Assembly (NCBI GenBank): GCA_029862005.1 | Contig: JAOTYD010000001.1 | Location: forward strand, 124,001-188,000 | Source of the DNA: Gammaproteobacteria bacterium | GTDB lineage: Bacteria > Pseudomonadota > Gammaproteobacteria > GCA-001735895 | Direction of reading: 5' to 3' | DNA length: 64,000 bases | In this document: positions 949 to 49,457 of the stretch, piece by piece | Layout: every line of letters begins with the position of its first letter | How positions within the stretch are numbered: the stretch's first letter is position 1 | The notes under the pieces: generated by a model | Database searches by the model: none | Told to the model about the DNA's origin: nothing | What the model saw: the letters and a program-made list of their open reading frames with translations, nothing else | Program-made: the position numbers and the translations under genes

Positions 949-1048
949 GGCACGGTCATCGGGATATCTTTGCAGGATCGCCGTAAATACATTCGTGTAG
1001 GCTCGCGCCCGGAGTGCCGTCTCACAAAGATATCCCGATGACCGTGCC
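949..1048. repeat. Family A long hairpin repeat, copy A1
   Basis: Arms 949-972 and 1025-1048 are perfect 24-bp inverted repeats around a 52-base core. The core shares blocks CGCCGT-AATAC, TGTAGGCTCGCGC and CGTCTC with copy A2 at 26561-26671. The outer arm pattern GGC-CGG-CATCG is shared with A2, but two positions differ with matching changes on the other arm, so pairing is kept. No coding function is seen. Confidence 0.8.
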
Positions 1049-1159: not shown

Positions 1160-1289
1160 GCTATCTCGGAAGATCGCCCGTAAAAGTGTAGCGCGGCATG
1201 GATGCCGCGTTCCAAGCGATTCCATGGATGGACCAACCGGCGCTTGCGCCGGTTGGGAGCGTCTTTTACGGGCGATCTTCCGAGATAGC
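1160..1289. repeat. Family B long hairpin repeat, copy B1
   Basis: Arms 1160-1186 and 1263-1289 are perfect 27-bp inverted repeats around a 76-base core (1187-1262). The core differs from copies B2 (26692-26821) and B3 (47431-47554) at only two or three positions. The arms differ at roughly half their positions yet remain fully complementary. Inside the core are two further hairpins: GCGGCA/TGCCGC, and CCAACCGGCG/CGCCGGTTGG with loop CTTG. Confidence 0.88.
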
Positions 1290-26560: not shown

Positions 26561-26671
26561 GGCGCGGGCATCGTAAATTGTTTGCGAGAACGCCGTGAAT
26601 ACTTCCATGTAGGCTCGCGCGCAACATCCCTGTTGCGCAGCGTCTCGCAAACAATTTACGATGCCCGCGCC
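26561..26671. repeat. Family A long hairpin repeat, copy A2
   Basis: Perfect 28-bp inverted arms (26561-26588 and 26644-26671) flank a 55-base core. The core contains an extra hairpin (GCGCAACA/TGTTGCGC) absent from copy A1, but shares CGCCGT-AATAC and TGTAGGCTCGCGC with it. It begins 12 bases after znuB and could terminate transcription in both directions. Only 20 bases separate it from B2. Confidence 0.85.
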
Positions 26672-26691: not shown

Positions 26692-26821
26692 GCCCTCCCC
26701 GGATTATGTTCGCAAAAGTGTAGCGCGGCAGGGATGCCGCGCTCCAAGCAATTCCATGGATGGACCAACCGGCGCTTGCGCCGGTTGGGAGCGTCTTTTG
26801 CGAACATAATCCGGGGAGGGC
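26692..26821. repeat. Family B long hairpin repeat, copy B2
   Basis: Perfect 27-bp inverted arms (26692-26718 and 26795-26821) flank the 76-base family B core (26719-26794). The core equals B3 except one base and B1 except three. It sits between znuB and the rplU promoter. Together with A2 it fills most of the 379-base gap. Confidence 0.9.
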
Positions 26822-44263: not shown

Positions 44264-46285
44264 TTGGAAGAAGAAGCCAGTGTTCTGTTCATGCCCTCGG
44301 GTCTGCGTGGCCAGGTGCCAATCGGGACCACGGTACTCCAGGCAGCCCAACGCCTGGGTGTTGATCTAGAATCAATTTGCGGCGGCCAGGGTAAGTGCCG
44401 CAAGTGCCAGGTGTTACCTCAGGAAGGTGAATTTTCGAAACACGGTATTGTTTCGCGCGCCGAGCATCTTTCCGGCCTCACCGAGACCGAGCTTCATCAC
44501 CAATCCAGGAAACGCCTTAAAAACGGTCGGCGCCTCGGATGTAATGCCCGTATTCTCGGTGACCTGGTGGTCGACGTCCCCGAAGAAAGCCAGCAGCACA
44601 AGCAGCATATCGCCAAGGCAGTTACCGCCTACGATATCCAGGTCTTGCCGGCTGTACGTTTGTACACCGTGACCTTGCCAGAGCCTGACATGCATTCCCC
44701 GATTTCCGATAAACGACGCCTGCAGCAGGCCCTGGTGAAAGAACATGAATTACCCGTCATGGATTGCGAACTGTCGCAACTGCGATTGCTGCAGCCCGCG
44801 CTCGCAAAAGCCGGCCGTAAGATTACCGTGGCGGTATACCAGTTCCAGCAGATAATTGGTGTCTGGCCGGGTGAAAAAAAGGAAATATTCGGGCTGGCGG
44901 TAGATCTCGGTTCGACCACAATCGCGGCGCAGCTCTGTGACTTGTATACGGGCGAAGTGGTTGCCACGGCAGACACGATGAATCCGCAAATCCGCTTCGG
45001 CGAGGATTTAATGAGTCGCGTCTCTTACGTAATGATGAATGAGGGCGGTGACACCGCGATGACGCAGGTGGTTCGGGAAGCCTTTAACCAGCTTGCCAGG
45101 CGTGCTGCCAAGTCGGCCGGCGTACAGCCCGAGGATATCCTGGACATGACCGTGGTTGCGAATCCAATCATGCACCACCTGTTTCTGGGTATCGATCCGA
45201 CGCCGTTGGGCACCGCACCCTTCACGCTGACGACCGATCAAACCCAAGTATTGCGTGCCGCCGAACTCGATATTCAGCTGCATCCGGAAACGCGCATATG
45301 CACTTTACCCTGTATTGCCGGCCACATCGGTGCCGACACTGCCGGGGTCATCCTGTCGGAACGACCAGACCTGGCCGAGGAAAACGTGTTGCTGGTTGAT
45401 GTCGGCACCAATGCCGAAATCGTGCTCGGAAATCGCCATCGCCTGCTGGCGGCATCCAGCCCGACGGGTCCTGCCTTCGAAGGTGCCCAGATAACGTCCG
45501 GGCAGCGTGCGGCTCCTGGTGCGATCGAGCGTGTCCGCATTGATCCGGGGACACTGGAACCGAGTTTTCGAGTGATCGGATGCGATGCCTGGTCCAACGA
45601 ACCTGACTTCATGGACAAGAGTGCACGGGCCGGGGTTAGTGGTATTTGCGGATCCGGCATTATTGAAGTGGTTGCGGAAATGTTCCTCGCCGGCGTCATA
45701 GATCAGGACGGCGTGATTGGACCTGTCCCGGGTAAAAACAGCGAGCGCATTGTTAAAGATGGCCGCACCTATTCATACCTGCTGCAGGATGGCGAGCGTC
45801 CGATACGCATTACCCAGAATGACGTGCGTGCGATTCAGCTTGCCAAGGCAGCGCTGCATGCCGGGACCCGCTTGTTAATCGACCACATGGGCATCGATAA
45901 GGTCGATCGCATCGGCCTGGCCGGTGCCTTTGGCAGCCATATTGATGTCAAGTACGCGATGGTGCTGGGATTGATACCGGACTGCGATCTCGACAATGTC
46001 GGGTCGGTGGGTAACGCGGCGGGTACCGGTGCGCGAATCGCGTTATTGAATTTCCCATCACGTATTGAAATCGGTGAAATTCTGCCCAAGGTGGAAAAAA
46101 TCGAAACCGCGATAGAGCCCAAATTCCAGGAGTATTTTATTGACGCGATGGCACTGCCGCACAAAACCGATGCTTACGAGGAACTCTCGAAGGTCGTAAA
46201 ACTGCCCGCGCCCAAAGCCAAGGCTGAAGGTAGCCCGGGCGACGAACGCAAGCGCCGCTCCCGTCGTCGTCGCGATCGCAATTAG
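44264..46285 (+). CDS. RACo/RamA-like corrinoid reactivating ATPase ([2Fe-2S], ASKHA) with Arg-rich tail
   Basis: 673 residues. The N-terminal ferredoxin domain has Cys39, Cys45 and Cys48 (ESICGGQGKCRKCQV) and a later Cys (RLGCNAR). The DUF4445 ASKHA ATPase follows, with VDLGSTTIAA, DVGTNAEIVLG and GLAGAFGSH. It reductively reactivates Co(II) corrinoid, as RACo in acetogens and RamA in methylamine systems do. It ends in a basic tail, RKRRSRRRRDRN. The start is a TTG at 44264; an in-frame ATG downstream (44291) is possible. Last gene of the operon; its stop overlaps the GlxA gene's stop. Confidence 0.92.
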   Translation: MEEEASVLFMPSGLRGQVPIGTTVLQAAQRLGVDLESICGGQGKCRKCQVLPQEGEFSKHGIVSRAEHLSGLTETELHHQSRKRLKNGRRLGCNARILGDLVVDVPEESQQHKQHIAKAVTAYDIQVLPAVRLYTVTLPEPDMHSPISDKRRLQQALVKEHELPVMDCELSQLRLLQPALAKAGRKITVAVYQFQQIIGVWPGEKKEIFGLAVDLGSTTIAAQLCDLYTGEVVATADTMNPQIRFGEDLMSRVSYVMMNEGGDTAMTQVVREAFNQLARRAAKSAGVQPEDILDMTVVANPIMHHLFLGIDPTPLGTAPFTLTTDQTQVLRAAELDIQLHPETRICTLPCIAGHIGADTAGVILSERPDLAEENVLLVDVGTNAEIVLGNRHRLLAASSPTGPAFEGAQITSGQRAAPGAIERVRIDPGTLEPSFRVIGCDAWSNEPDFMDKSARAGVSGICGSGIIEVVAEMFLAGVIDQDGVIGPVPGKNSERIVKDGRTYSYLLQDGERPIRITQNDVRAIQLAKAALHAGTRLLIDHMGIDKVDRIGLAGAFGSHIDVKYAMVLGLIPDCDLDNVGSVGNAAGTGARIALLNFPSRIEIGEILPKVEKIETAIEPKFQEYFIDAMALPHKTDAYEELSKVVKLPAPKAKAEGSPGDERKRRSRRRRDRN

Positions 46286-47349: not shown

Positions 47350-47430
47350 ACTAGCCCCTAATTTCCCCCATTGCACGTCATTTTTACAGCAGACTTTGAG
47401 CCCGTCGAGGTGCCTCATCGTATGGTAAGT

Positions 47431-47554
47431 CTCTCCGAATATAGCTCGCAAAAGTGTAGCGCGGCAGGGATGCCGCGCTCCAAGCGATTCCATGGATGGA
47501 CCAACCGGCGCTTGCGCCGGTTGGGAGCGTCTTTTGCGAGCTATATCCAGAGAG
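47431..47554. repeat. Family B long hairpin repeat, copy B3
   Basis: Arms 47431-47454 and 47531-47554 pair at 22 of 24 positions around the 76-base core (47455-47530), which differs from B2 at one base. The two mismatches (C47436/A47549, A47438/C47547) are both G-U pairs in a minus-strand transcript. It sits between the mttB 3' end and the GlxA-like gene, without an adjacent family A copy. Confidence 0.88.
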
Positions 47555-47650
47555 GGCGTTCGTATAGTTTAAACGCGACGAGCGACCTGGATTTAATGCT
47601 CAGTCAAGAAACCGATCACATGTGCAGATTTGTTTCGAGGGGATGGTAAG

Positions 47651-49216
47651 TTAGACCATGGAGTCGGGCATCGAATCTTTGCGCTGCTTGATGTAGGCCA
47701 GCAGGGCTTCGTCGATATCGGGATCGAGAGGCGGTGCCTCGTACTCGTTGAGCAGTTTCTTGAAGCGCTTGTTGCAACGCTGTGCATGATCGAGACTACC
47801 CTCGGATTCCCATTGCTCGAAACTATTATTGTCGGTAATCGGTGATCGGTAGAACGCGGTTTTGAAATTATTCTGTGTGTGATTGCATCCCAGGAAATGT
47901 ACGCCGGGACCGACTTCGCGAATCGCATCCATGGCCTGGCCGTTCTCGGAGAGATCGACACCTCCCAGCAGGATTTCCATCATCGCCGCCTGATCCGCGT
48001 CCATGATGAATTTTTCATAACCCATCGCGAGACCACCCTCCATCCAGCCCGCGGTATGCAATACAAAGTTAACGCCGGCCATCACCGCGGGGTAAAGTGT
48101 GGCGGCAGCCTCGTAGGCCGCCTGTGCATCGGGTAGCTTGGAACCGCAGAGCCCGCCACCGGAACGGAATGGTACGCCGAGTCTGCGCGCCAGGGCCGCC
48201 ATGACATAAAGTACCAGCGCGGGTTCCGGAGTACCAAAGGTCGGGGCACCCGACTGCATCGACATTGAACTCGCGAAGCTGCCGAAAATAACTGGCGCAC
48301 CGGGATTAACCAGCTGTACGAAAGTAATACCGGCGAGTGCCTCGGCGAGAGACTGGGCCGCGGTGCCGGCTACGGTTACCGGTGACATCGCACCGGCAAG
48401 GATAAACGGCGTGATGATCGTGGCCTGGTTGTTTTCGGCATATACCTTGGCGGCACCCAGCATGGTATCGTCGAAGGTCATTGGCGAGTTTGCGTTGATC
48501 AGGCTGGTTGCGTAGGTGCGCGGGCGTCCGGTTTCGGGATCGATATAATTTTCACCGGCAATGATTTTGATCATTTCGACGGTATCAACCGCACGTTCGG
48601 GCGCGGTTACCGAGCCCATAAATGCCTTGTCGGAATACTTGATATGCGAGTAAACCATATCCAGGTGGCGTTTGTTGACCGGAACATCGACCGGCTCGCA
48701 AATGGTGCCACCGGAGTGATGAAGGCTTGGTGACAGGTAGGTCAGCTTGACGAAGTTTTGAAAATCCTCGAGGTTCGCGTAACGACGACCCTTGTCCAGG
48801 TCAAATACGAACGGGCTACCGTAGGCGGGAACAAAAACAGTATTTTTACCGCCAATCCGAACGCTGCGTGCCGGATTGCGCGCGTGTTGCGTGTATTCAG
48901 CCGGCGCCGAAGCCTGGATAATGGAGCGGCACAGGCCGCGGGGAAAACGAACCGTGACACCATCGACTTCGGCACCGCCTTGTTTCAGGATTTCGAGTAC
49001 CTCGGGCATATCCCGAAACTCGATGCCGACTTCCTCGAGAATGGTGTCGGCGTTGTTTTCGATAACTTGCAACCCTTCCTCGTCGAGCACCTCGAAAACG
49101 GGGATCTTGCGTTTTATGTATGGCGCACTGACGCTTTCGGTCGTGACACCAGCCCGTCGCGCGTCACGCCCGCCGCGTCCGCGTCGATTCCTGGATGCCC
49201 GTCTTGCTTCGCTCAT
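47651..49216 (-). CDS. MttB-family (non-pyrrolysine) methylamine/betaine:corrinoid methyltransferase
   Basis: 521 residues from ATG 49216, chosen for its GAGG site and family-typical start MSEARRASRN. An upstream ATG at 49261 is less likely. The N-terminal 25 residues are arginine-rich (NRRGRGGRDARR), and the trimethylamine methyltransferase barrel then follows (from about VFEVLDEEGLQVIE). No in-frame amber codon occurs, so it is the pyrrolysine-free group that includes glycine betaine methyltransferase MtgB. It likely demethylates a quaternary amine and passes the methyl to the corrinoid protein at 40112. Confidence 0.9.
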   Translation of the reverse strand: MSEARRASRNRRGRGGRDARRAGVTTESVSAPYIKRKIPVFEVLDEEGLQVIENNADTILEEVGIEFRDMPEVLEILKQGGAEVDGVTVRFPRGLCRSIIQASAPAEYTQHARNPARSVRIGGKNTVFVPAYGSPFVFDLDKGRRYANLEDFQNFVKLTYLSPSLHHSGGTICEPVDVPVNKRHLDMVYSHIKYSDKAFMGSVTAPERAVDTVEMIKIIAGENYIDPETGRPRTYATSLINANSPMTFDDTMLGAAKVYAENNQATIITPFILAGAMSPVTVAGTAAQSLAEALAGITFVQLVNPGAPVIFGSFASSMSMQSGAPTFGTPEPALVLYVMAALARRLGVPFRSGGGLCGSKLPDAQAAYEAAATLYPAVMAGVNFVLHTAGWMEGGLAMGYEKFIMDADQAAMMEILLGGVDLSENGQAMDAIREVGPGVHFLGCNHTQNNFKTAFYRSPITDNNSFEQWESEGSLDHAQRCNKRFKKLLNEYEAPPLDPDIDEALLAYIKQRKDSMPDSMV

Positions 49217-49457
49217 GGTTGGTTCCTCGTAATCCTGTCGAAGGAATTGCGAAATAAACAATCAAGTATGGTTTTTGACCATTTTAAGGGCTGATCTAAG
49301 CGCGACCCTGAACTGTTTGCCAGCGCCATATCGGTTTTTGGGAGGGCAGTGTTAGCAGTTGTGGATGCAGCTAATATCGCTAGAATGAGGTTCGAATCCA
49401 GAGAAATCAACGGAGGTTGCGGTTATCAGCGATGATCCCGAAATAATCGGTATCCTT

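Follow-up and report, generated by a model that had tools for sequence, protein, structure and literature searches.

The 64,000-nucleotide stretch analyzed here (hereafter, the window) carries three copies of a hairpin-forming element that we call family B, together with two copies of a sister element, A (Table 1). Based on Pfam matches, copy B1 neighbors the genes for the primosomal helicase PriA and for arginyl-tRNA synthetase, B2 is followed downstream by a gene for ribosomal protein L21, and B3 is flanked by genes for an AraC-type regulator and an MttB-family methyltransferase, both called on the minus strand. All three copies had been recognized in the original prediction, and each is confirmed. 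As described there, B1 and B2 have perfect arms, which extend over 27 nt and enclose 76 nt, and the arms of B3 pair at 22 of 24 positions; the covariance model extends this last copy outward to the limits given in Table 1. The folding energies of the three copies are 8 to 13 s.d. below those of dinucleotide shuffles. Only 20 nt separate A2 from B2, and because the RNA-like strand of A2 is the minus strand, these two elements stand back to back. The other sister copy, A1, retains perfect arms despite two GGA loops and an inner hairpin that look degraded when read from the sequence.

Table 1. Positions of family B elements, their parts, and sister elements in the window.
Feature	Position	Strand	Remarks
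B1, complete element	1160-1289	+	27-bp P1, junction, P2, P2b, P3; B-model score 150.9 bits
B1, P1 stem, 5' arm	1160-1186	+	22 locus-specific nt, then AAAAG
B1, P1 stem, 3' arm	1263-1289	+	CTTTT, then 22 locus-specific nt
B1, junction pairs U·G, G-C, U·G, 5' side	1187-1189	+	Partners at 1259-1261
B1, P2 hairpin	1191-1210	+	ANGGAY-type loop, here AUGGAU
B1, P2b hairpin	1221-1232	+	UCC-AUGGAU-GGA; second GGA site
B1, P3 hairpin	1233-1256	+	10 bp, CUUG-type loop; not in the RF01731 model
B2, complete element	26692-26821	+	B-model score 151.8 bits
B3, complete element	47428-47557	+	B-model score 132.9 bits; noted earlier as 47431-47554
A2, sister element	26561-26671	-	Full-length B-model match at 26563-26669, minus strand, 63.5 bits
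A1, sister element	949-1048	-	Upstream of B1; perfect 24-nt arms

Near B3, a sub-threshold match to the pyrrolysine element PYLIS_3 (33.7 of 38 bits; 48052-48150, minus strand) sits within the uninterrupted MttB-family gene at 47651-49261, and a RACo-type activator gene lies nearby at 44264-46285. This MttB-family gene probably represents the non-pyrrolysine branch of the family.

Searching the entire assembly with the 86-nt core recovers about 30 family B copies rather than three, and five other species of the genus carry between 14 and 43 matches each to the B model. Metagenome contigs often end in or beside these hairpins (e.g., L103, L113, L133, L138, and L145), so that copy counts in fragmented genomes are too low. 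In each copy, a near-constant 86-nt core is enclosed by a 27-bp stem, of which the outer 22 bp are specific to the locus. In the genome examined here, mean divergence among copies is 7% for the core compared to 51% for the arms, and the two values are uncorrelated (r = -0.14). The contrast between a near-invariant core and variable, complementary arms, first pointed out for three copies, is therefore general. Counting outward from AAAA/TTTT in 113 copies, Watson–Crick pairing is 82 to 100% at arm positions 1 to 22 and then falls to 45, 42, and 29% before settling at about 20 to 25%. Pairing thus greatly exceeds chance, and this sharp drop indicates that the length of the stem is fixed at 22+5 positions. 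The arms share a weak consensus (GCYACCTCGGG..GAA.GCYCGC), but every copy has a complementary arm pair of its own.

A structural alignment of 55 copies yields a single fold, composed of the 27-bp P1 stem, a U·G/G-C/U·G step, P2, the short P2b, and the 10-bp P3. Very strong support for this fold comes from the covariation analysis that had been suggested for these elements: 95.8% of cells are paired, and double changes occur in 30 of the 51 pairs. The covariation score is 0.403, compared to 0.114 for shuffled columns and 0.05 to 0.091 for slid partners; given that the copies are related, the comparison with shuffled columns does not amount to a probability, and it is the slid-partner control that retains this relatedness. 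Covarying pairs are present in P1, P2b, and P3, with UCC/GGA, CCC/GGG, and UAC/GUA all occurring in the P2b stem, and the three junction pairs are invariant in 54 to 55 of the 55 copies. Within the core, the two ANGGAY hairpins are 26 nt apart. By pattern match, both carry ANGGA-type loops in 111 of 128 copies, with a variable nucleotide at the N position.

Arm mismatches reveal which strand is functional. When read on the plus strand of the core, they are G·T in 89 cases versus A·C in 16, and with one copy counted per locus the numbers are 56 versus 10 (p = 7e-9). The excess is seen both where the element is sense (14:0) and where it is antisense (12:2) to its neighboring genes, and on the GGA strand of sister element C the corresponding counts are 14 versus 1. 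Equal numbers would be predicted if the process acted on double-stranded DNA or if the arms were repaired mutationally; on the opposite strand, the same cells would read as A·C. The asymmetry thus indicates selection on one single strand, most simply an RNA. Several points count against an RNA: the excess is weak in the genome examined here when taken alone (17 versus 11), it is not significant on the GGA strand of sister A (18 versus 10), and a folded single strand of DNA would yield a similar asymmetry.

No Rfam family matches the window at its gathering score. Under a permissive threshold (211-nt search), the best full-length match of B1 is to RF01731, the TwoAYGGAY RNA, on the plus strand with 32.9 bits (E = 0.0009); the best score seen among B copies is 37.5 bits, under the gathering cut-off of 43 bits. 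When the whole genome is searched with RF01731, six matches are obtained at E <= 0.001, three of which exceed the cut-off, and two of those below it are B copies (E = 4e-4 and 7e-4). Sister element C scores above the cut-off (54.7 and 47.7 bits), and the B covariance model matches sister A along its full length (Table 1). Both sisters follow the same plan of a conserved core and variable arms. The matches to the two models indicate that A, B, and C are of one structural kind, and that in each the modeled strand is the one with two GGA loops. Across the class, RF01731 is found in 18 of 274 genomes, compared to none of 14 control genomes, and copies from other genera likewise hold a conserved core inside a long variable stem.

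The history of individual copies was examined at orthologous sites. We required flanks that were unique after repeat masking on either side of the element, because A and C elements in the flanks confound unmasked pairing. The comparison covers 100 loci from relatives and, from the relative G030, about 1.6 Mb of sequence. At the B1 locus, an element with the same flanks is present in three species; the arms of these orthologs differ at 2 to 3 of 22 positions, and every difference is matched on the opposite arm. In general, arms are closest to those of the ortholog (median rank 0.00 when all copies in the other genome are ranked), whereas for the core, the ortholog is hardly nearer than a copy picked at random (median rank 0.39, with 0.5 expected by chance). 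Where the flanks are 95% identical, arms have covered 19% and cores 46% of the distance to unrelated copies, and for orthologs overall these values range from 19 to 37% and from 46 to 79%, respectively. Moreover, the type of core, either 86 or 101 nt, differs in four of nine ortholog pairs at 95% flank identity, compared to 0.38 of random pairs. The core is flipped in just 1 of 25 well-supported ortholog pairs, and inversion is therefore rare.

The arm and core ranks, together with the switching between core types, indicate that arms stay with their locus while core variants move between loci. Judging from these sequence comparisons, cores are likely exchanged between copies, and gene conversion is the simplest reading, although short of proven. 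Plain slow evolution of the core may be part of the explanation, as only a few positions of the core can vary, and the switch between 86 and 101 nt could in part reflect a 15-nt insert that is repeatedly lost or gained. The original prediction had proposed, as one of three options, that pairing-preserving selection and conversion act on the stems. The selection is borne out by the covariation, by the compensated changes at orthologous sites, and by the strand-specific excess of G·T mismatches; conversion of the stems is not, and any swapping is placed by the data in the core instead. The comparison with empty orthologous sites that had been recommended had a divided outcome, in that no clean empty site was found among the orthologous loci compared, and sites that carry the element show that its arms are inherited.

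The candidate empty sites proved to be deletions or replacements by another element. Where one relative carries two inverted B copies (L090 in G002), another retains just one fused, palindromic remnant (G030:C1:40758-40924), apparently through a deletion between neighboring inverted elements. At a further locus (L148; G030:C2:95544-95673), the left arm matches the G009 allele and the right arm resembles that of G002, and the two mispair; this copy appears to be either an assembly chimera or the product of recombination through the core. The 15-nt insert, GGTCCGACGCATCGG, is quasi-palindromic and occupies one fixed place in 101-type B cores (e.g., L094 and L157), and it also occurs elsewhere in sisters A and C and in unrelated spacers. 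There are 6 to 15 exact copies in each of G000, G002, and G030 and none in two other species; the reversed pattern has no occurrence in those genomes. It may represent a very small mobile insert.

The placement of the elements is strongly biased. Based on gene calls from codon usage, the genes on either side of B are convergent for 66 copies, tandem for 42, and divergent for none, versus 28, 84, and 52 for ordinary spacers of at least 130 nt. In tandem spacers, the plus strand of B is sense in 19 copies and antisense in 23. Given this near balance and the G·T excess among antisense copies, read-through from neighboring genes cannot be the sole source of an RNA. A search of the flanks for a promoter consensus upstream of B copies found none, which counts against an RNA. 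Another element of the same kind is present within 450 nt of 69 of the 128 copies. In 68 of 70 cases, the nearby partner is on the opposite strand and 5' of B, so that the two stand back to back, as do A1-B1 and A2-B2; the partner may belong to a different subfamily (A-B or C-B). Of 21 RF01731 pairs spaced by no more than 500 nt in six genomes of other families, 20 show the same arrangement, as counted from the match list. Divergent (-,+) RF01731 pairs a few hundred bases apart occur in G307, G197, G280, and G126 (loci L370-L389), and G197:C3:106074-106683 is an exception to the pair rule. Neither viral contigs nor plasmids gave a match, the latter being searched both for B and for a distant RF01731 copy.

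CsrA/RsmA proteins recognize the pattern CANGGANG in hairpin loops. The genome examined here encodes CsrA (PF02599, 90.1 bits; C2:67069-67224). A separate 112-codon frame with two CsrA-domain matches (L323; G000:C56:6472-6762, minus strand) is possibly a tandem CsrA protein beside the ordinary one at C2:67069, and a third frame with a CsrA domain is present at C10:7772. TwoAYGGAY RNAs have been predicted from their loop motifs to bind CsrA (PMC4333381). Given this published prediction and the loop motifs of B, binding of CsrA to B is probable.

We therefore favor, as the likely explanation, that family B is a dispersed structured RNA of the TwoAYGGAY kind, formed by the plus strand of the core, with a core that probably binds CsrA. 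This proposal draws on the fold and its covariation, the strand asymmetry, the behavior of orthologs, the genomic positions of the copies, and their kinship with RF01731-type elements. It also resolves the paradox raised in the original prediction: because arms and core are under different constraints, the paired arms are able to diverge widely around a core that hardly changes. The outer helix of P1 would be kept for pairing only, leaving its sequence free to diverge from locus to locus by matched changes. The core, with its junction, two ANGGAY hairpins, and third hairpin, would be conserved in sequence as a site for both RNA-binding faces of a CsrA/RsmA dimer. Most copies are old residents of gene 3' ends, often in back-to-back pairs, and recombination between copies seems to shift core variants around and even them out. 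We infer that the plus strand is transcribed and bound by CsrA, and that its function is either local control of 3' ends or titration of CsrA from many loci.

The main rival holds that the folded strand is DNA rather than RNA, as in a REP/REPIN-like mobile hairpin whose transposase handles a folded single strand and whose doublets are the mobile unit. Dozens of copies, doublets that are strictly divergent (both for B and for RF01731 pairs in other genera), a strand asymmetry irrespective of gene direction, and a weak preference for A at -1 and G at +5 in the flanks would all fit such an element. However, its inverted repeats are not conserved among copies, most testable sites are common to species at 95% flank identity, which indicates little recent movement, and the clearest absences looked like deletions. 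In addition, a free N in ANGGAY fits the specificity of CsrA but not transposition, and we regard a mobile DNA hairpin as unlikely. Template switching during replication, which would copy one arm onto the other with no selection on an RNA, has been described as a mechanism for RNA hairpins (PMC8794818). Double changes comprise 42 transitions and 40 transversions versus 1476 and 857 in the flanks, and this shortage of transitions makes single-step double changes plausible. Template switching nevertheless predicts as many G·T as A·C leftovers, where 56:10 are seen, and the double changes are not clustered (6 adjacent versus 9.6 expected). It also leaves the fixed stem length and the invariant U·G pairs unexplained, and overall we find it improbable, slightly more so than the terminator discussed next.

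The abundance of B between convergent genes and its absence between divergent ones might alternatively mark a hairpin that serves as a bidirectional 3' end or terminator. Promoter avoidance alone would yield part of this placement, though, and no U-tract follows the stem, with a terminator scan negative at B1, B2, and B3. Since a symmetric terminator needs neither strand-specific pairing nor conserved GGA loops, we give this function a small probability. Far less credible is the original proposal that the element inserts into existing palindromes or makes an inverted copy of one flank at insertion. Although it would account for wholly different arms around near-identical cores, it conflicts with the fixed arm length, with the weak arm consensus, and with the inheritance of arms at orthologous sites, none of which offers a clean empty site. 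Pre-existing palindromes are rejected as targets: the 35 long perfect palindromes in 1.65 Mb include no B-type arm pair that lacks a core.

More tentatively, many Gammaproteobacteria might carry genome-wide doublets of CsrA-site hairpins at gene 3' ends, with private drifting stems and exchanged cores, as a distributed CsrA-responsive system for 3'-end control or titration. If true, this would be a layer of control undescribed for TwoAYGGAY RNA. The TwoAYGGAY kind is seen here to form a large, dispersed family in which covariation is strong, the functional strand is clear, doublets are strict, and stem length is fixed, and this opens the CsrA hypothesis to direct testing. With dozens of stems in each genome, the family also provides material for studying the evolution of paired sequences, and it serves as a warning that palindromes with variable arms need not be footprints of transposition. 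In the literature searched, which leaves out most subscription papers, the dispersed copy number, the fixed-length locus-specific paired stems, the strand-specific wobble, and the back-to-back rule are unreported. The same literature yielded nothing on point for CsrA-site repeats and no functional test of TwoAYGGAY RNA since its listing in 2010.

Among known repeats, B resembles REP/REPIN sequences in being short, dispersed, intergenic, 3'-biased, and hairpin-forming, with inverted doublets. It differs in that its arms are about 50% divergent within one genome, its conserved part is the junction core, and its doublet partners can come from different subfamilies. The Correia elements, or NEMIS, of Neisseria are likewise 100 to 160 bp long with inverted repeats of about 26 bp around a core, and they can be transcribed as long hairpins (PMC2649163). 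In contrast, terminal repeats define the Correia family, whereas those of B are locus-specific and preserve pairing alone, and no clean empty site was found that would display a target duplication.

Among RNAs, the paired GGA hairpin sites, in a genome that encodes CsrA, recall the CsrA-titrating sRNAs CsrB, CsrC, and RsmX/Y/Z. However, B has two sites, about 30 dispersed copies, and no visible promoter of its own. The closest likeness is to TwoAYGGAY RNA, for which tandem GAs and low conservation of the external stem have been noted (PMC4333381). B shares the two AYGGAY-type hexaloop hairpins on the same strand and a long external stem, the 27-bp P1, that is paired but poorly conserved in sequence. 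As to tandem GAs, the P2 stem is GCGAGGC...GCCGAGC in about half of the 55 aligned copies, which gives tandem G·A pairs (columns 34/49 and 35/48), and the other copies have G-C and C-G at these columns. The differences are that the second GGA hairpin of B has just 3 bp, that many pairs of the Rfam model are unformed, and that B carries the third hairpin, P3. The short hairpin, the extra P3, and scores under the RF01731 cut-off count against the RNA that we favor. By score B is not a member of RF01731; it is a variant of the TwoAYGGAY kind with P3 and a shortened second GGA hairpin.
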